The translations under genes and the position numbers were made by a program. DNA of 64,000 bases, from positions 11,336,635 to 11,400,634 of the forward strand of contig NC_087079.1 of the NCBI RefSeq assembly GCF_026151205.1. The letters run 5' to 3'. The notes beneath the pieces are model-generated. The model had not been told where the DNA came from. It was given only the letters and a program-made list of their open reading frames with translations, and did no database searches. Positions 37,774 through 47,966 of this stretch are shown piece after piece. The DNA is from Bolinopsis microptera. Lineage: Eukaryota; Ctenophora; Tentaculata; Lobata; Bolinopsidae. Position 1 is the first letter of the stretch; each line of letters begins with the position of its first letter.

Positions 37774-37861
37774 CACGTGTCACATATTACACGTGCCACA
37801 TTTGTCACGTGCCACATTTGTCACGTGTTAAACCTGTTCTGACACGTGATGATAACACGTG
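37774..37861. promoter_or_regulatory. Cluster of six CACGTG E-box palindromes
   Basis: CACGTG occurs at 37774, 37790, 37806, 37822, 37843 and 37856. The first four are exactly 16 bp apart, so they form a short tandem array. The last two lie within the end of the TMEM161 coding region. CACGTG is bound by bHLH-ZIP factors (Myc/Max, USF, MITF classes). Whether this array regulates the hydroxylase 0.9 kb downstream is unknown. Confidence 0.5.
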
Positions 37862-39291
37862 CTAAAGAGCGACACTGCAGCGTTAACACTGACAACCCAC
37901 CACATAACATAACTGCCCACACTCGTTAGGAACTGTTTTGTTAGCACAGAGCGCATCCCTTGAAACACGCTAACATCAGCTTTAGAGACAACATCAGGGA
38001 TGATATCCGTAACTCCGTCTAGAATGGAGCTGGTAGCAGTGAGAGGAGGCATGGTATCAGGCATGTTTTGTAGAGATAACAGGATGAGACACAGTTGTAG
38101 GACGATAAGGGCGGGAGTGATGATCTGGAGAACTACAACACTGCTGTATTGGAAGGTGTATGCTATCTTCTGCTGGATTACTTTGTGATCTATCCTCCCT
38201 GCTTCCCGCTTTAGGGTGTAGAGGTATCTCTTTGCAGAGTCCAGGTGAGTTTGAGTGTAGAGTTTGATTGAAAACAAACGAACCAGCATCATCAGTGCAA
38301 TGAAGCAAATTCGGAGGATGTTGAACGATTTCTCAGAGATTTGTACCTGTTTTTCAATGTGTTCCTGGACCAGAGGCTTACACCAACACAAAGTCACAAG
38401 AAGAGGTGCTATCAGGTTGAAATGTACCAAAACTTGGGACATTTTGTCCTTGAAACTATCAGCATAACTTGGCTTCTCCTCATCTTCCTCCTTTACTTCG
38501 TTAGCTTTTCGCAGCAGTTGGCTGTTAAGTGCTCCAAATCTAAAACTAGGGAAGGTGAGAAGAGCCCCAATAAACCCTGATAAGACAATCAGAAAACCTT
38601 TGAATGCTTTAACTGACGGCATCGACATATCCTGGCCTTTCACTTTGGTGGCATTGCCGAACTTGGAAAACTCCTCAACAAATTCATTGTAGCCTTCATC
38701 GATCCCAAAATCAATGGACTTCTTGCTAGCCATAGAGACCATCAAAGCGAATACAATAAAGAGAAAGGTAGAAATAGCACAAAGTGATCTTTCTCCTCCT
38801 CCCAGCTGAACGTACACTTTGAACATGTAACAGAGGAACTTAGTACAGAACAGGAGCACGATAAGTGACCAGATATAAGAGAGATGAAGATCAGTTACTG
38901 GTGTGTACTCCAGGTAAATGGCCGCTTCTGTGACTGCGTAGATCAGGATACTTGACAGAGACATTAGCACTATCATATCTATCTCTTCGCCGTGTGGTAG
39001 CAGCTTGATTTGAGTGTATGATATGATTCGATTGTATCTGGCTTTAAAGTCGCTGTCCTTTGGAATTGTAAAGTCCTCAAGCTGGGTCTTCTTGTCCCCA
39101 TTCCGTGGTTTTTTCTTCATGTGGTCCTTGTAGGCTTGGGAAAACTCTCCAAGATGTCCCGTACTTGGGGGCACGCAAAACCACACATTGTAGAAGATCA
39201 GGAGACCGTAGCTGTAACTGCTGAATATCTTCGTCATAAACAAGCCGATAATAAGAGTGGAGAGGAGTTGGACGCCGAATATCATTGCCAT
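37828..39291 (-). CDS. TMEM161: TMEM161 family multi-pass membrane protein
   Basis: A single-exon frame of 487 codons, close to the ~480 residues of vertebrate TMEM161A/B. Diagnostic segments: the N-terminus MAMIFGVQLLSTLI, the dibasic cytosolic loop, FTIPKDSDF, GGGERSLC, the central GALLTFPSFRFG, APLLVTLCWCKPL, SEKSFNILR and LKREAGRI. About eight or more hydrophobic segments are visible. TMEM161B in vertebrates is linked to excitability and cardiac rhythm. The biochemical role is unsettled, and nothing here adds to it. The start ATG at 39291 aligns with the family start. Its 3' end overlaps two E-boxes. It lies head-to-tail with MRPL46, about 300 bp downstream of the MRPL46 stop. Confidence 0.93.
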   Translation of the reverse strand: MAMIFGVQLLSTLIIGLFMTKIFSSYSYGLLIFYNVWFCVPPSTGHLGEFSQAYKDHMKKKPRNGDKKTQLEDFTIPKDSDFKARYNRIISYTQIKLLPHGEEIDMIVLMSLSSILIYAVTEAAIYLEYTPVTDLHLSYIWSLIVLLFCTKFLCYMFKVYVQLGGGERSLCAISTFLFIVFALMVSMASKKSIDFGIDEGYNEFVEEFSKFGNATKVKGQDMSMPSVKAFKGFLIVLSGFIGALLTFPSFRFGALNSQLLRKANEVKEEDEEKPSYADSFKDKMSQVLVHFNLIAPLLVTLCWCKPLVQEHIEKQVQISEKSFNILRICFIALMMLVRLFSIKLYTQTHLDSAKRYLYTLKREAGRIDHKVIQQKIAYTFQYSSVVVLQIITPALIVLQLCLILLSLQNMPDTMPPLTATSSILDGVTDIIPDVVSKADVSVFQGMRSVLTKQFLTSVGSYVMWWVVSVNAAVSLFSTCYHHVSEQV

Positions 39292-39598
39292 CTTGGGACT
39301 TGGGAGTAAGGCTGAAAAGATTGTCTCGAGTTTATAAATCGTGCCCTATTATATTGTTTTCATATTATTATAAGATCATCGTACTTCTCAAATTTGATAT
39401 TATAGCTAATAGATATATTATAGCAAATGTAAATTCTGGACATATTTTAAAACTATAATTAATAATTTATATTTTATGACGTTTTTAATTTGATAATTCC
39501 ATTGATCTGTAATTTGATACATGAAACAATAATTTCAATTCAAGAAAGCGACAACATCATTCCATCTTATAACATAAATATAAACATTTCAACAAATT

Positions 39599-42500
39599 TC
39601 ACTTCAAACAAGGCTCCACACATTTTAGCACATCCTTCGGAACAAAATCTTTGAGTTCACTTTTAGTACACCATCTAAATGATTCACCTGTAAAGTTCCC
39701 ACCGTTATATTTACTTTTCATGAAAAAGGTTTTGACCCCCGTACGGTTGGTACGATCCTGATATTTATTACTGTATTTATTCACATGCACACTTATGGGT
39801 AATCCACTTGAGACTTGGAGTTTGAGGTTTTGATTAGATGGATGAGATTCCACTGCTGCTACAGCAGCTTCCTCTAATGACTTCTCTGTCTCCACCATTT
39901 TGTGAGGAAATGTCCAGCCGTCATCTGATTTTACGATTAAGAAAACTGATGAATATGGTTTAATGAGATGGACCGATTGTTTGTCTTCATTTGACGTTCC
40001 TTGGGGTTTTAGTGGAAGGTAATCGTCATTCTGAACAGGGTCCATCAGAGCCTTTTCGTCTGCAGAGGAAAAGTATTGGGGTAAATCATACTTGTTCTTA
40101 GGTGGAAACTTCTGTTTCCTTTCTTTGATAATTTCATCCTTTTTACTTTCAGCTGCAAGTTCGAAATCATTGTAGACACTCCGTTCATTTTTGATAGTTG
40201 CCTTCATTTGTTGGTATTTAGCTACTAAAGGCTCTACTGCTGGTTGGTACTGTGGAGGCCTCTCTACTATCACCGAGCTTTGGACCTGAGATTTATTTAG
40301 AAGTTTGATAATAAATAGATAAATACAGTACTGTCAATGTTAGTAGGTAAAAAAAACAAGAATCGAGCATATTCTTGTACTGAAAATACAGAGCTGTTTG
40401 AAATTTTTAAACTATTTTCACAACTACAATTAAATACATTTATTGAGGTATGACCAAAGTAATACGAATGTAATACGAATGTAATGTTAATGGAATGGAA
40501 CAAATCTCACATGTGAACTCTTCAATTTGCTTCAATTCAAATCAACAACTTAATTCAAATCATCAACTCAATATCATGGACGATTCAATGGAAACATTTT
40601 TTGGAAAACTATTGTCGGAATGTGATCAAAAATGCAAAAACTGTACTGCACTCAAATCTCATGTAAAGTTTCTCGAGCGGAAAGTGATCATCCTAGAAGA
40701 CATTGTTTAAACTTCTCAGACTATAGCAGAGATTAATGGTACGTTGTTACATCAAAGTACCAATCAGTCAATAGATTATCGGGCTGTCCTGGATAGGTGT
40801 TCAGATGTTGCAGTTCAGACAGAATTTGAAAACGATCAGATTGAATATGACAGTGAATGTGAGGTGCCTGAATCTTTCATGCTAATCAATAGTGATGGCA
40901 TCATTGAAGCACCAGATTCTATCATTTCCAACAACACAGAAAATCAAATCAGTGGGAGTACAGGATCTGTCAATCCATGGAGTGGCAAGTATTATGCTGA
41001 AATAGATGTAACACCCATATCTAGTGTGGCCTTAAGTGTAAATGACGAAAGCCCTGACATTGTCATACCACCTGTTGAACTCATTGATCAGGCACCGTTT
41101 CAAAAATTCTCCTTAGACATCTTCCTGAGAGAATTGGATTTTAGCCACCAGTTTCAAAATAGGAAAACAGCTTACTTTGGGGACTTCCCATATGTGTATA
41201 ATGGGGGAAGTCACGAGGCGAAGGAGATACCACATCAGTCCTATCTGGCTGCTATCTGTTCATATCTTGATGTGTTACTCCCGGATTATGTTTACAACAG
41301 TGCTCTCGTAAACTACTACAGTACTGGGACAGAATGCATGCCTATTCATAGTGATAATGAAGAATGCATCGATGAAAACTCTTATATTGTTACAGTTTCT
41401 CTGGGTGCCTCTAGGACGATGCAGTTCACAGAAATTCAAACAGGAAAAGTGGTGTCTGCCCTAGATCTAAAGCATGGGGATGTTTGTATCATGTCTAAAA
41501 TCCCAGCTTCACTACAGACATGAAATCTGTACTCAACCATCTTGTACAAACAAAAGGATCAGTATCACATTCAGACTGATCAAACCTGTAGCTGTTGTCC
41601 AAAGATTAACAAGTACACCAACCAACATGTGCAATGACAATTACCATGACCCATATGAAAACATCTCCAACTCCAGCGGCTATGTACCTTATCAAGAAGA
41701 CGAGTTTATAGTTCATCCATCAAGGAAAACGAATGGTGCTTATCAGCACCGACCTCTAACCTCACCCTATACATCTCCACCACCCCATCTGCATCAATCA
41801 GGGCGGCATGTTAACAGACAACAATTGTTCGAAAAGGAGACACCCAACGATGTGAGCACAGTTTATATCAGCAGCAGCATCTTCAGGCATCTGAATGAAA
41901 AACTGTTGAGCTCTTCATCTCAGAAGGCCAAAGTATTTTTCTACCCAGGGGCCAACTCAATCCAAATGTCCCAAAGACTCTTTAGCGACAGTCAGTTCAA
42001 AGTTCTCAACAAAGAAAAGGTTAAAAAGGTTGTTTTACTAACTGGTACTAACTGTGTTGATCCAATTGACCTCAACACAATGAACTTCAACAGTGCCACC
42101 AATGACATGGAAGAATTTGTTCAAAAATTGTGGGCAGAATTTAATAGTGCAAAAATATATATCTTAAATATTCTGCCTAGAGCTGTCACTAGTAAGAACA
42201 TTATAGTGCAGGGACTTAATCGATACTTAGAGAATATGTGTTATAAGCATGGGCTCATATACATTAACACAGAACATGAAAATAATCTCTTTACTTTAAA
42301 TTATAATAGAAAGGACAAGTATTTTGGCAGGGGCCATGACAATGTGCACCTTAATAAGTTAGGAATTGCCAGGCTTGGTAAGCATCTCAAATATGTAACT
42401 CACTTGTGTTAAACTTCATTAAAATTCTATAATCCAAGGGTATCAACATGAATAATAACAGGAGTACTGTTTTATCTGGTTTAAAATGTTAGATCAGAAC

Positions 42501-45500
42501 AAATTTCTAATAACTTAACGTTTTTATATCTCTCAAGCTATATTTATCACAAACAGAAGTGAGTTACTATTTTATGCTGTTAAATTTTATGATTTAAACT
42601 GCAGTATGATTGCTGATCCGAAATCCAATTTAAATCATATGTATGACATGATTTGAAACTTAGTCTACTTGAGGAGACTGCATGTGGATTTGTTCCCCAT
42701 TAGCTTTGGTTTAACGTTATTCGTACCTCAATAAACGATAATCTCTCTCTTGGTCTATGTAATATACAGGGTGGCCTGACTAATCTGGCAAAAACTCTCG
42801 AACTACAGGAGCTAATATTTCGCGAAAAGCTTGACATAATTGGAATTAATGAGACAAACCTTAAATCTGATATAGACACTAGTACACTTAACTTCCCCTT
42901 AAACTTTGATTTTATAAGGTGTGATAGACCTAACGATAGAGGAAGAGGAGGGTGTGGTATATTGATCAACCAAAATGTTAACCACAAATTACTCAATTTA
43001 GATATAACCTACTCTGATATTTCTAAAATCGAAGCTATATGGATACAACTCAAGGACGCCAATCTTTACATTTGCTGCTTCTACAGATCACAAAACTTTT
43101 GTCATCTAGATACTTTCCTTGATTATATGACTGAATGTATGATGAAACTTCAAGGTAAGAAAGTAATATGGATTGGCGATGTTAATGTTAACCAAAACTC
43201 TTTATCTGATCTAGATTATAAAAAGTTAGATATAACAATGAAGCTCTTTGGAATGATACAGACTGTTACAGGAATTACTAGAGTTGCAAACTTAGATGGT
43301 AGAATAACGCAGAGCACAATAGATGTTGTAATGACTAACTGTTACTCTAATTTCATAGAGTGTAAAGTACTTGATGATAGAATAGGAGATCACCAAGCTC
43401 TCAAATGTGTTCTCGACTTTAAAGTAAATAAAGCTAGTAAATTCCAGAAGGTCCTTATCAGAGACCACTCCTTAAACAATCTAAAAGCCTTAAGCTATTT
43501 TCTGGGATCCTGCAGTAACTACAGTAATATTCTAAGCTGTACTAATGTAGACCATGCGCTAGATGGACTTAATCATCACATCCAGGAATCGTATGATAAT
43601 TACTGTCCACCTAAACAGATTAAATGTAATAGTAACTTTCTTTGTAATCCCTCTAAAGTACTGTTGGCAGAAATACGGAAGAAGAAGATGCTTTTCAGAA
43701 AGTATAAAAAGTGTTTAGGACAATTAAACAAATTCAAGTGTAAGTGTATTAATGGAATATGTAACTGCAGAAAAAGTGAGCTACATAAGAAATGCTCTAC
43801 TTCGTGGGATAACTATCGTCCCCAAAGAAACTATGTGACAAAATTATCCAAAGAAAACAGACGCACAAATATTGTTCAGGACCTTACTGTGAAAAGTGCA
43901 AAAAACGATTTGAAAGGTATTTGGAAAACTATCAAACATGCTTCAAACTTACCTGGAAAAATAAGTAGCTCTTCCCCAAGCAACTTAAATGTTAACGGAG
44001 TTAACCTGCATTTTGCCACAGTTGGTACAATATTACAAGAATCAATTAAGGAAAAGGATTCAGACGACTTTCTAGAATATATGCCGCCTCCACCAGAGTG
44101 TAAACTCTCTGTATTCGAAGAGGTGACTGTTGAACAAGTAAAAGAATATATACTCAGTATACCATCAGATAAATCTATTAACGATATCATGCCTATTAAA
44201 GTATATAAGTATATTATTCCCCAAATTATCGATCCAGTAGCTCATATTATAAACCTTAGTATGAAAAGTGGAACAATGCCGTTGGCATGTAAAATTGCAT
44301 CAGTCACTCCAATTCTTAAAACTGGTGACCCTAATGATCCAAATAACTACCGGCCAATATCCATACTCCCCCTACTTGGAAAATGCATAGAATATTTTGT
44401 TAACCAACAGCTCACAGAGTATGTTGAAACAAATAAACTGCTTACCAACAATCAGTATGGATTTAGAAAAGATCATTCCACCACTTTTCTAATGCTTAAT
44501 CTATTTGATAAAATATTTACGTCTAAGGAATCACAGAAGAAACCTGCAATTGTATTCTTAGATATTAAAAAGGCCTTTGACACAGTAAGCCATAATATTT
44601 TATTGAAAAAACTTAAGTATTATGGAGTTGATGGCTTTGTCATAAAGTGGTTCAAAAGCTACCTTGGGGACAGAAAGCAGCACACCAAAATGCGTGGTAA
44701 TGTAAGCACATCACTCCCTGTTAAAACAGGTGTGCCACAGGGTAGCATATTAGGACCAATTCTATTTAGTTTATTCATAAATGATCTCAGTAGAAATTGC
44801 ACACAATCTACTGTTTACTTATTTGCAGATGACAGTGCACTATATTTTGATAACATTTCCCGAAGCATATATGAAAATGTAATTAAGGATATGAAAATTG
44901 TGTATGAATGGCTTAGAATCAACAAGCTGAGACTAAATGCTGCAAAATCTTCATTCATTGTATTTGATAGATATCCTAATCTGGACACGTTGTCAATCCC
45001 TCTGGATTTGGAAAAAGAATGCCTTTTTATAGAAGAAACTAAATCTCAAAAATATTTAGGTCTCATGATAGACAATTTATTGAACTTTCAAGACCATATT
45101 GATTATGTGAAATCAAAAATTGCTAAAAGAATAGGGGCATTATATAGGTCGAAAAATCTTCTTCCACTGAAATATAGAAAAATGTTTGTAAATGCTCTTA
45201 TGCTCCCCCAATTTGACTACCTGGATATAATATGGTCTAGGGCTGCCAAAACCAGACTTAATTCTCTTGATATAGGGTGGCCCATAAGTGACTACCCACA
45301 CGCAACCTCTTAATAACTCACGTAATTCGTCTCCAAATTGCACCCAAATTTCAGAGATTATAGATATGGGTCAAACTTAGATTTCCTGAAAGTTTCGTAA
45401 GCCACGCCCAATTACAGTGGGCGTGGCGTGACACTCCCTCTTTTTCACTATTGTCTTCATAAAATGAGAACGCTTTAAGCTAAGAACTCAAAATTTTTTG

Positions 45501-47966
45501 CACACATTTGGCTTGATAATTGAAAACTTTTCCAAAAGTTTCAAGTTCATTGGTTAAAATATGGCTGAGTTATGACCATTTTAAAATCCATCGGATATGT
45601 GATCCGAGCACTCAGTCAGTGATATTTGCACTCAATTAGTGATCTCGTCACCCAATCTGATCAAGAGTAAGGCGTTAGCGTGTATTAATGAGGTTCATTA
45701 GGCTTCGATTGGATACCGATGATGACTTTGCTAGAAAGGGAAACACAAATTTTTAGGATAAAAACCAGATCGTGACCTTTTCAGGAAAAGCCGTTCTCTC
45801 CACCACTTCATCCGGTCTAGTAGAGCCCCAGTGAATTGCATTCTGGGAGTTGACATATCCGTTTATATGGCCTTGTCGCTGTACCAGATTTCGTCCTCAA
45901 AGTAGGGATCCACATTCTGCTTGGACAGGAATGTGTTGGCGAAATCTATCCTCGATTGGAAATCACGGTCCAAAAGTTTGTGTTTCTTTGTGATTCGGTA
46001 GGCCCGGTTAGAAAGGTCTTGCTTTAGGATTCGCTGAATGGTTCTGCTGATGTCTAAGGCAGGAGCTCGTTTCCGGGTGCCAATCTTAGGTGTGTCCATC
46101 ACGTCACCAACAACCATCGTGATGTTTTCTACAGTCCTCGCAGTTCGTCTTCTGCCGACTCTTCGCCGATCGTGTGCAGAAAACGTAAACTTGATCTTGT
46201 GATGAATGTCAAAGCAGCTTTTCCGGCAAGGGGGTGGTCGGTTGAATTTCATCTGAAATTGTCGTTTAATCTGAGGGTAGAACTCCCCATTTTCTTTCTT
46301 TAGGTAGACGAACAATCGTTGTTTTGCAGTAAAGGGAGGATAGTGAACCATTTTCGATGATTCAATGGATGGTTCATTCCTTTTTATTGATTGTAAGGAA
46401 CCTGTGACTAGCAGGGCTAACAAGCCCTGAAATGGTGACACCACCATAAATTCGTGTGATAGCGTTTTAGGTGCAGTCAGCTGTATAGGCCGGCCCATAA
46501 GCAGGCTGCAACCAATCAAGCGGTGCATGTGAGCCAAACAGGTCATTAACCAAGTGACGAGATCACTGACTGAGTGCTCGGATCACGTATCCGATGAGTT
46601 TTGAAATGATCATAACTCAGCCATATTTTAACCAATGAACTTGAAACTTTGGGAAAGGTTTTCAATTATCAAGCCAAATGTGTGCAAAAAATTTTGAGTT
46701 CTTAGCTTAAAGCGTTCTCATTTTATGAAGACAATAGTGAAAAAGAGGGAGTGTCACGCCACGCCCACTGTAATTGGGCGTGGCTTACGAAACTTTCAGG
46801 AAATCTAAGTTTGACCCATATCTATAATCTCTGAAATTTGGGTGCAATTTGGAGACGAATTACGTGAGTTATTAAGAGGTTGCGTGTGGGTAGTCACTTA
46901 TGGGCCACCCTGTATTATACAAGAAAGTAGCAAAAATTGCACTGGATGTTCATTGGCAGGAACCATCAGTAAATGTATATCGAAATATGAAGTGGTTACC
47001 CTTACACTTAAGACGACAACTCCATCTATCAACGTATATGTATAAAATTCTTAATGAGGCTGCACCATCATCATTCACCGGTAAATTTTCTTATGTATCC
47101 GGAGGATCACGTGATGCTGAGAGGTGCAACCTTTATATTCACAAATCCAGAACACACAAAACCTTTACATATTTAGGTGCAAAATGTTGGAATACAATTC
47201 CAGAGAACATAAGGACTATAGAATGTAGTGTAAATTTCTCACAATGTATGAAATCTAAATTTATGTCAGATGTAATTCAAGGAGTCTCATCCTATGAAAT
47301 AAACAATAGTTTCGACTATTTCAACACTCTAGCTAAGTGACAACTGAAACAATTTTTAAGGTGCTGGAGTTTTTGTCGGGTGAAAAGGCCCCCTGCGTTA
47401 TATGACCTATTTTCAGAAGTATAGAACTTTAAACATCTCCTTTATTCGTTCCCATTTGTTATCATTGCCATTCTAATGTTGTTCTATACTTCTCTGTGTA
47501 TAACTGTAAATAATATTACTTACGAAATTCCAAAGTGGGCATCTATGTAATTTTCAACATTAATTGTTACCTTCGTGCCCACAGTTCACTGTTAAATCAT
47601 ATCTTATTTTACCACTCATTAATTTATTACTTATTTTGTTTTACAATTTACATGCTATATCCTTATGTCCCTAGAAGGGTGTTCTGCTAACAGTTTTTGA
47701 CTGACTTGAATGTCCTGCACAGCAGATTGAAGCTTCTTAAATTATTTTTTATTCTTATTGTATTGCTGTGTAAATTTGATTCTAATTCTAATTCTAATTC
47801 TAATGAAGTCACACTGAAATATTTACGATAAGACAAGCAAAATTAAAATTAAAATTCTGTCTGATATCTATAGATATCATATGAAAGTGATACCGACCAG
47901 CCATGAGAGTTGTCTTGCACCAAGTATTCGAATAACATCGGTTGCCAAATTGCAACTTCGTCTCAT
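39599..47966 (-). CDS. MRPL46: Mitochondrial ribosomal protein L46 (mL46)
   Basis: The main exon 40285-39599 encodes 228 residues with MRPL46 landmarks: ERPPQY, ERSVYNDFELA, a Nudix-like core (VFLIVKSDDGWTFPHKMVE then SLEEAAVAAV), GVKTFFMKSKY and the C-terminal KDVLKCVEPCL. It has no Met at its start; the frame runs back to an acceptor CAG at 40286-40288. A plausible first exon is 47966-47898: it starts MRRSCNLATDVIR, looks like a mitochondrial targeting peptide, and joins in phase 0, though its donor (GTCGGT) is weak. The total would be 251 residues versus 279 in human. The protein belongs to the large mitoribosomal subunit and has a degenerate, non-catalytic Nudix fold. The 7.6-kb intron is almost entirely a LINE in the opposite orientation. 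Confidence 0.88.
40495..42412 (+). pseudogene. LINE ORF1: coiled coil + AlkB-like dioxygenase + SGNH hydrolase-like
   Basis: One frame runs from ATG 40495 to 41523 with a single TAA at 40708-40710, then continues in the next frame to 42412. The frames meet between about 41470 and 41525. N-terminus: CDQKCKNC followed by a heptad-like coil. AlkB-like 2OG-Fe(II) domain at about 41095-41580: RKTAYFGDFPY, NSALVNYYSTG, metal ligands HSD (41347-41355), TVSLGASRTMQF, the distal His in RHEI, and RISITFR, whose R-x5-R is the 2OG-binding signature. A proline-rich linker follows. The SGNH-like domain occupies about 41855-42412: VYISSSIFRHL (block I, GDS replaced by SSS), VVLLTGTN (block III region), ILPR, and the terminal DNVHLN with the Asp/His pair. 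Esterase domains are known in CR1-like ORF1 proteins. An AlkB domain alongside is not something I can match to a named family. Confidence 0.85.
45275..46912. mobile_element. Mariner-like transposon with long inverted termini inserted in LINE ORF2
   Basis: Termini GGGTGGCCCATAAGTGACTA and its complement continue as nearly perfect inverted repeats for about 350 bp or more on each side (to about 45660 and 46545). Flanking TA dinucleotides (45273-45274 and 46913-46914) match the Tc1/mariner target duplication. With this assignment the LINE frame reads through on both sides. The left end seems to lack two terminal bases present on the right. Confidence 0.88.
45863..46351 (-). pseudogene. Truncated mariner-like transposase, DNA-binding half
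   Basis: The frame from Met at 46351 reads FTAKQRLFVYL, a helix-turn-helix unit (PPCRKSCFDIHHK), an RRVGRRRTART linker, a second helix-turn-helix (DISRTIQRILKQDL) and reaches IWYSDKAI, the place of the first catalytic Asp (usually FSDEAHF). There it stops, so two thirds of the DDE/D domain is missing. The type resembles insect DUF4817-containing mariner relatives. The element must have moved with transposase supplied by another copy. The longer frame up to 46546 is terminal-repeat sequence. Confidence 0.8.

Follow-up and report, generated by a model that had tools for sequence, protein, structure and literature searches.

AlkB-type enzymes strip methyl groups from DNA and RNA. Plant RNA viruses, which are genetic parasites with an RNA stage, carry AlkB domains in their replicase polyprotein. 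Here, we describe an AlkB domain in another such parasite and at another location, namely the first open reading frame (ORF1) of a non-long terminal repeat (non-LTR) retrotransposon of the ctenophore Bolinopsis microptera. The element studied lies in a stretch of 64,000 nucleotides (the window; NCBI RefSeq assembly GCF_026151205.1, contig NC_087079.1, forward-strand positions 11,336,635 to 11,400,634). Ty3/gypsy elements of the orchid Phalaenopsis are likewise retrotransposons with an AlkB 2-oxoglutarate (2OG) dioxygenase, encoded in an ALKBH5-like ORF with N6-methyladenosine (m6A) demethylase activity in vitro (PMC9289625). They are LTR elements in which AlkB forms a separate extra ORF and is reported to have been acquired recently, in a single lineage (PMC9289625), whereas the Bolinopsis element is non-LTR, has an ALKBH2/3-like AlkB inside ORF1, and carries it in twelve representatives of many families. 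The zebrafish L2 element ZfL2-1 likewise has a non-LTR ORF1 with an SGNH-type domain, consisting of a coiled coil and an SGNH esterase for which lipid binding has been proposed, but the main text describing it contains no mention of AlkB (PMC3905857). In Hydra, transposon transcripts are likewise trans-spliced to spliced leaders (SLs), which were seen there in Iso-Seq reads (PMC12220107), whereas the Bolinopsis leaders are fixed in genomic copies. No long interspersed nuclear element (LINE) with AlkB was found among the open-access papers listed, with subscription papers, preprints and Repbase outside the scope of that list. Compared with the known transposon-borne AlkB, the Bolinopsis domain, as read from sequence, is new in its element class, in its place inside ORF1, in its AlkB subtype and in its far deeper spread.

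By its reading frames, the window element belongs to a young non-LTR retrotransposon with an AlkB and SGNH-like ORF1, of which it is a damaged copy. It forms a single copy on the plus strand, at approximately 40405–47804 of the window, with the following layout.

40405–40447, plus strand: leader 3, a spliced leader of the host, copied into the 5′-end of the element and recognised from other copies, in which such leaders are joined at an identical point, and from the leader-3 tandem array
40448–40494, plus strand: 5′ untranslated region (UTR) of the element downstream of the trans-splice junction, from comparison of copies
40495–42412, plus strand: ORF1, interrupted by a premature stop at 40708–40710 and by a shift of frame within 41471–41523; its length in intact relatives is 637–639 amino acids
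41092–41585, plus strand: AlkB domain (ALKBH2/3-like 2OG-Fe(II) oxygenase), its limits placed approximately by reference to L031, an intact copy
41347–41355 and 41555–41575, plus strand: AlkB motifs HSD and R-x5-R (RISITFR), respectively, read from the frames
41858–42409, plus strand: SGNH/GDSL-like domain, with its Ser block at 41858–41878, GTN at 42044–42052 and DxxH at 42338–42355
42704–45271, plus strand: 5′ part of ORF2, with an apurinic/apyrimidinic (AP)-type endonuclease and a reverse transcriptase recognised by Pfam
45270–46915, no strand assigned: nested DNA element foreign to the LINE, with 376-nucleotide inverted repeats
46911–47340, plus strand: C-terminal part of ORF2 beyond the nested insertion, from comparison of copies
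47341–47804, plus strand: 3′ UTR with a repeated ATTCTA-type tail at its end, from comparison of copies

The AlkB-like domain proposed in the initial annotation of this DNA is real: segment 40711–41520 matches the Pfam family PF13532 (2OG-FeII_Oxy_2) at E = 2.9e-16 with 60.7 bits (cut-off 31.2), and the HSD, the later His and the R-x5-R have all been located. A single-sequence search of the PDB returns ALKBH3 at 4.1e-6 and bacterial AlkB at 1.4e-4. The second His and the R-x5-R of the window copy sit in the second ORF1 frame, which opens at 41471. The frameshift between the two ORF1 frames, which overlap at 41471–41523, was thus noted correctly, but it is not the sole break, since the reading frame that starts with ATG at 40495 meets a premature stop at 40708. 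The predicted order of an SGNH-like part followed by an endonuclease and reverse transcriptase ORF is also borne out. The second frame (41471–42409) matches Lipase_GDSL_2 at E = 2e-6 with 28.9 bits, under the cut-off of 32.9, while ORF2 matches the endonuclease family PF03372 (5.2e-6) and the reverse transcriptase family PF00078 (9.6e-40). A PDB search with the second ORF1 frame gave one weak unrelated match only. The AP-type endonuclease and reverse transcriptase that Pfam finds in ORF2 are the pair by which a LINE is recognised, and no RNase H match occurs among the Pfam matches of the window and of the family A–D proteins. The SGNH-like ORF1 and the lack of an RNase H match suggest a possible membership of the CR1/L2 clade.

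The spread of AlkB-carrying copies was examined across the B. microptera genome (264,652,675 bases in 232 contigs, 13 of them of 15–26 Mb; contig C1 has 26,206,493 bases). A query of 160 amino acids of the window AlkB gave 716 candidates, the best 150 of which were scored, and all 150 match the window AlkB at the threshold of E ≤ 1e-5. Open frames of at least 500 codons surround AlkB in 114 of these 150. Grouped by how closely they match the window copy, they comprise family A, to which the window element belongs (mostly 98–99% identity), family B (66–68%), family C (54%) and several more (35–42%). Twenty stretches of families A–D were then read, along with ORF1 from eight stretches of other families. 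Ten family-A copies were retrieved, and with eight of them the window element is 97.9–99.7% identical over the aligned pieces. From its first ATG, ORF1 has 637–639 amino acids in eight of these ten copies (600 and 453 in the others), 578 in family B, 624 in C and 575–582 in D. Undamaged copies accordingly hold the one continuous AlkB-SGNH ORF that the initial annotation had anticipated, and AlkB is followed by the SGNH-like part in one open frame in all twelve representatives. HSD, His and R-x5-R are kept in one frame at 41 of 44 distinct loci read, the exceptions being the window copy, L014 (a stop within the match) and L030 (a match covering 97 of 160 residues).

The same question can be asked from the side of ORF2, which comes in two types: the ORF2 proteins of families A and C are 55% identical, and that of family D is 28–32% identical to either. 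Both types sit downstream of an AlkB-SGNH ORF1. For group-1 ORF2, 136 copies with a 5′-end were found among the best 150 of 732 matches, and 101 of them have an AlkB among the listed matches within 8 kilobases (kb) upstream. For group-2 ORF2 (best 150 of 1166), 29 copies have a listed AlkB upstream, three of those more than 5 kb away, and whole identity classes have none. Group-2 families lacking AlkB were considered as a candidate explanation and rejected for the two classes sampled: L058 and L059, one copy from each of two classes with zero or near-zero counts, both carry AlkB. Since copies from apparently AlkB-less classes carry the domain, predicted AlkB is the rule among the copies read, while families without it may exist. 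The zinc finger of the family-D and group-2 ORF2 is recorded here as a separate observation: residues 12–48 of the L049 protein give a C1-type zinc-finger match ahead of the endonuclease (27.4 bits vs. 26.5). The search for relatives covered IMG/VR, GTDB and, as the sole animal genome, that of B. microptera itself; none were found in scans of IMG/VR (first ORF1 frame, ORF2 and AlkB alignment) or GTDB (ORF1 frame).

The AlkB domains of these copies are diverged in sequence and conserved in their active site. ORF1s of families A–D match PF13532 at 7.8e-17 to 5.4e-23 (62.6–82.7 bits). Nine of ten representatives do so at E ≤ 0.01, with one giving no match, and the two further representatives, L058 and L059, match at 5.9e-16 and 5.3e-19 (59.7 and 69.6 bits). 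A phage ‘alkylated DNA repair’ family is matched by all ten, and NCBIfam models of bacterial AlkB DNA demethylases match five and three of the ten members, at 45 bits against cut-offs of 231–267. A profile built from the ten LINE AlkBs finds human ALKBH3 (3.9e-24) and ALKBH2 (1.1e-20) among solved structures, with chains of these two proteins alone reaching E ≤ 0.01 (16 distinct sequences). Pairwise AlkB identity among the twelve representatives is 28–67%, apart from the E–F pair (83%), with a mean column identity of 49%. In 12/12 representatives, neither the iron ligands (H86, D88 and H144) nor the 2OG arginines (R156 and R162; residues numbered after the first row of A5) vary. The same holds for the Glu of HSDxE (E90) and for an N-terminal motif, R-x3-Y-x-G-x3-Y-x-Y, both of which we take to serve base recognition in ALKBH2/3. 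Because active-site residues are kept across diverged families, the putative enzyme is suggested to help the element in copying or in escape from its host.

Nei-Gojobori ratios of nonsynonymous to synonymous divergence (dN/dS) indicate that the AlkB part is under purifying selection. In the three pairs that could be measured, they are 0.114 (A–B), 0.082 (E–F) and 0.149 (B–C), at dS of 1.3–2.5. For the E–F pair, the rest of ORF1 gives 0.366 in the linker, 0.207 in the N-terminal part and 0.110 in the SGNH part, and in all five group-1 pairs dN is lower for AlkB than for the three other parts of ORF1. In a tree of the twelve LINE AlkBs with ALKBH3 and ALKBH2, the LINE sequences fall on one side (100/99), but the tree cannot show a single origin, because two outside sequences are too few. 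Within the same tree, the two groups are not resolved, 7 of 11 inner branches being unstarred.

The second part of ORF1 is SGNH-like by some of its motifs and by profile matches. All ten representatives keep the Ser block, as S-S-S or S-D-S, together with G-x-N. DxxH is present in all nine of the ten with a readable end (that of L051 lies outside the fetched stretch) but is altered in the two further ones, L058 and L059. Lipase_GDSL_2 is matched at E ≤ 0.01 by eight of the ten members and by L059 at 0.0029, with no match for L058. Against the PDB, the group-1 SGNH profile finds 2hsj, a putative platelet-activating factor entry, at 6.2e-6, and it aligns over most of its length with the ZfL2-1 ORF1 protein 4c1b, although weakly (E = 0.2). 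Between groups 1 and 2, the SGNH parts share a weak profile likeness (probability 5.6%, E = 0.0069). In group 1, the N-terminal region of ORF1 contains, as judged by eye, a CxxC and a candidate coiled-coil-like stretch.

Copies of 5.5–5.9 kb from families A–C are found on many chromosomes with shared ends. Since pairs of family-C copies are 99.4–99.8% identical over 5.9 kb, activity is recent. The 3′ tails are of the ATTCTA type in families A and B and of the ATTT type in C. The ORF2 proteins of families A (L040) and B (L042) are 98.4% identical, whereas their ORF1s (L031 and L041) are 59% identical, and the DNA match between the two families (L041–L044 vs. L031–L040) jumps from 72% to 98% between the two ORFs. 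This near-identical ORF2, diverged ORF1 and inter-ORF switch point to a probable modular exchange of ORF1. A long target-site duplication proposed at L040 was ruled out, being a tandem repeat; this LINE copy sits within a tandem repeat array. In families A and B, the ORF2 frame has no ATG ahead of the endonuclease start (window 42704; L040 and L042). As for a spliced leader of its own for ORF2, no exact TTGAG occurs within 30 nucleotides before the chosen ORF2 oligos of families A/B and C.

Leaders of approximately 42–45 nucleotides stand at the 5′-end of 31 of 36 distinct group-1 loci read (hand count), comprising 25 of L001–L030, all four family-C loci, and families E and F. Fourteen carry leader 1, thirteen leader 2, and four leader 3, the type found in the window. 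The junction is identical within a family whichever leader is present, with the sole exception of L012 (family A), where leader 2 joins 12 nucleotides further downstream, just after an AG, as the use of an alternative trans-splice acceptor would explain. No leader was found at the eight group-2 loci read, six of which are stretches that may stop short of the 5′-end. The leader-2 array lies at C1:14.49–14.55 Mb in 434-base-pair (bp) units, in which the leader is followed by a GTAAG donor and a 3′ hairpin. Leader 1 has 1,191 genome copies, 72 of them with GTAAG next and mostly in arrays, and leader 3 has 92, with an array of approximately 428-bp units at C5:1,039,673–1,050,572. The occurrence of three host leaders, each with a tandem array, at one junction indicates that the RNA of the element had been SL trans-spliced before it was reverse transcribed, as read here from genomic copies, not transcripts. 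Leader 1 of the element resembles the Hormiphora spliced leader (PMC8527503).

Some further observations concern the leaders themselves. Their arrays were located at C1:14.49 Mb, C5:1.04 Mb and C3:13.51 Mb. Rfam gave only two matches on the SL unit, both below gathering scores. The fold of the unit as a whole is unexceptional (z -1.5), and the 3′ hairpin appears in both predicted structures. Leaders also precede sequence unrelated to the element, as in L035 and L041, and 1,119 of the 1,191 leader-1 copies lack GTAAG; these leaders are perhaps those of retroposed trans-spliced messenger RNAs, which may be relevant to the report of 718 leader sequences from the genome of Hormiphora (PMC8527503). 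Head-to-head inverted leader pairs approximately 45–70 bp apart recur (C1:3731160/3731210, C1:7307505/7307565, C3:9105132/9105191, C8:5250547/5250608 and others), and twin insertions or inversions are possible sources.

The nested element that interrupts ORF2 at 45270–46915 has 376-nucleotide inverted repeats that are 95% complementary and is presumably mariner-like; its minus-strand frame at 45863–46582 has no Pfam match. Outside the LINE, the minus-strand frame at 39599–40333 resembles MRPL46 (PF11788, just under the cut-off), and that at 37828–39345 resembles TMEM161 (PF10268, 4e-77).

What the AlkB domain does can be approached through its nearest relatives. Its ALKBH3/2-like profile speaks for substrates of the 1-methyladenosine (m1A) and 3-methylcytidine (m3C) type rather than m6A; ALKBH3 acts on single-stranded nucleic acid, while ALKBH2 is a repair enzyme of double-stranded DNA. 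We consider it probable, with appreciable room for doubt, that the AlkB domain of the ORF1 protein demethylates element RNA or complementary DNA (cDNA) and so keeps the template readable, in a multimeric protein whose SGNH part associates with membranes or lipids. The ORF1 protein would multimerise on and coat the RNA of its own element, and its AlkB domain would bind this single-stranded RNA, or the cDNA, and oxidatively remove the Watson-Crick-face methyl groups (m1A, m3C) that stop reverse transcriptase. The demethylated RNA would then stay a readable template during target-primed reverse transcription, and the marks might be damage or host-imposed. The SGNH part might tether the particle to lipids or membranes, a role that has also been put forward for the ZfL2-1 ORF1 protein.

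Several findings weigh against this picture or the steps leading to it. The substrate (m1A/m3C) is guessed from the profile match and from the roles of residues in ALKBH2/3, and a single-sequence AlphaFold prediction of the 160-residue window AlkB fragment gave a predicted local distance difference test (pLDDT) score of 33.9. On selection, dN/dS was measurable in three of ten pairs, synonymous sites being saturated in the other seven, and in three of four group-2 pairs the SGNH part is more constrained (lower dN) than AlkB. The SGNH part never reaches the Pfam cut-off (best 28.9 bits vs. 32.9), and its DxxH is altered in 2 of the 11 readable representatives (L058 and L059). At the level of the element, 35 of the 136 group-1 ORF2 copies with a 5′-end have no AlkB upstream among the listed matches, and no clean target-site duplication was found among 18 copies examined.

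The alternatives differ in how much of the enzyme they retain. The initial annotation had itself allowed for a chance host insertion in this one copy, or for a profile search that finds no 2OG-dioxygenase fold. The former is refuted by AlkB standing in frame in many copies and all twelve representatives, with every one of the best 150 of 716 matches carrying it, and the latter runs against the Pfam and ALKBH3/ALKBH2 profile matches, so that together they retain a barely perceptible chance. A domain that mainly binds nucleic acid for the ORF1 protein, with catalysis secondary or absent, is a more serious rival, albeit an unlikely one. It would fill a gap, as the esterase-type ORF1 proteins in RepBase have no structural RNA-binding domain (PMC3905857) and an AlkB fold could supply one, and the conserved N-terminal motif common to ALKBH2/3 agrees with it. 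A pure binding module is nevertheless disfavoured, because it would not need the five Fe/2OG residues that are invariant in 12/12 representatives.

Other rivals keep the catalysis and change its target. The orchid Ty3/gypsy AlkB, with its m6A demethylation in vitro, is a direct precedent for an m6A eraser, and it has been proposed to act against surveillance of element messenger RNA by the host (PMC9289625). The orchid domain is, however, ALKBH5-like, whereas at E ≤ 0.01 the LINE profile finds chains of ALKBH3 and ALKBH2 but none of ALKBH5 or FTO, with ALKBH5 reached only at E = 0.29 in the single-sequence search, and this role appears improbable for the Bolinopsis domain. Activity on DNA, either to mend alkylation of the cDNA or of target DNA or to remove N6-methyladenine (6mA) at the integration site, draws on ALKBH2 as the second-best solved relative and on the NCBIfam DNA demethylase matches, which lie far below their cut-offs. 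ALKBH3 scores better than ALKBH2, and DNA and RNA are not separable from these matches; we would give activity on DNA a low probability. Template demethylation by the ORF1 protein remains our preferred account of AlkB. A wider extension of it, which we offer as speculation that may well fail, is that an old clan of animal LINEs kept a demethylase in ORF1 across deep divergence to counter a host defence. The host would methylate SL trans-spliced element RNA so as to block reverse transcription, and the element would erase these marks within its particle, in an epitranscriptomic arms race.

The spliced leaders fixed at element 5′-ends would form a genomic record of RNAs that underwent trans-splicing before being copied. 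An active AlkB domain would mean that there are animal transposons with a built-in RNA or DNA demethylase, in many diverged families and so beyond a single recent capture. Such activity could explain how esterase-type ORF1 proteins handle nucleic acid, and base methylation of transposon RNA as a barrier to reverse transcription in animals would become directly testable.
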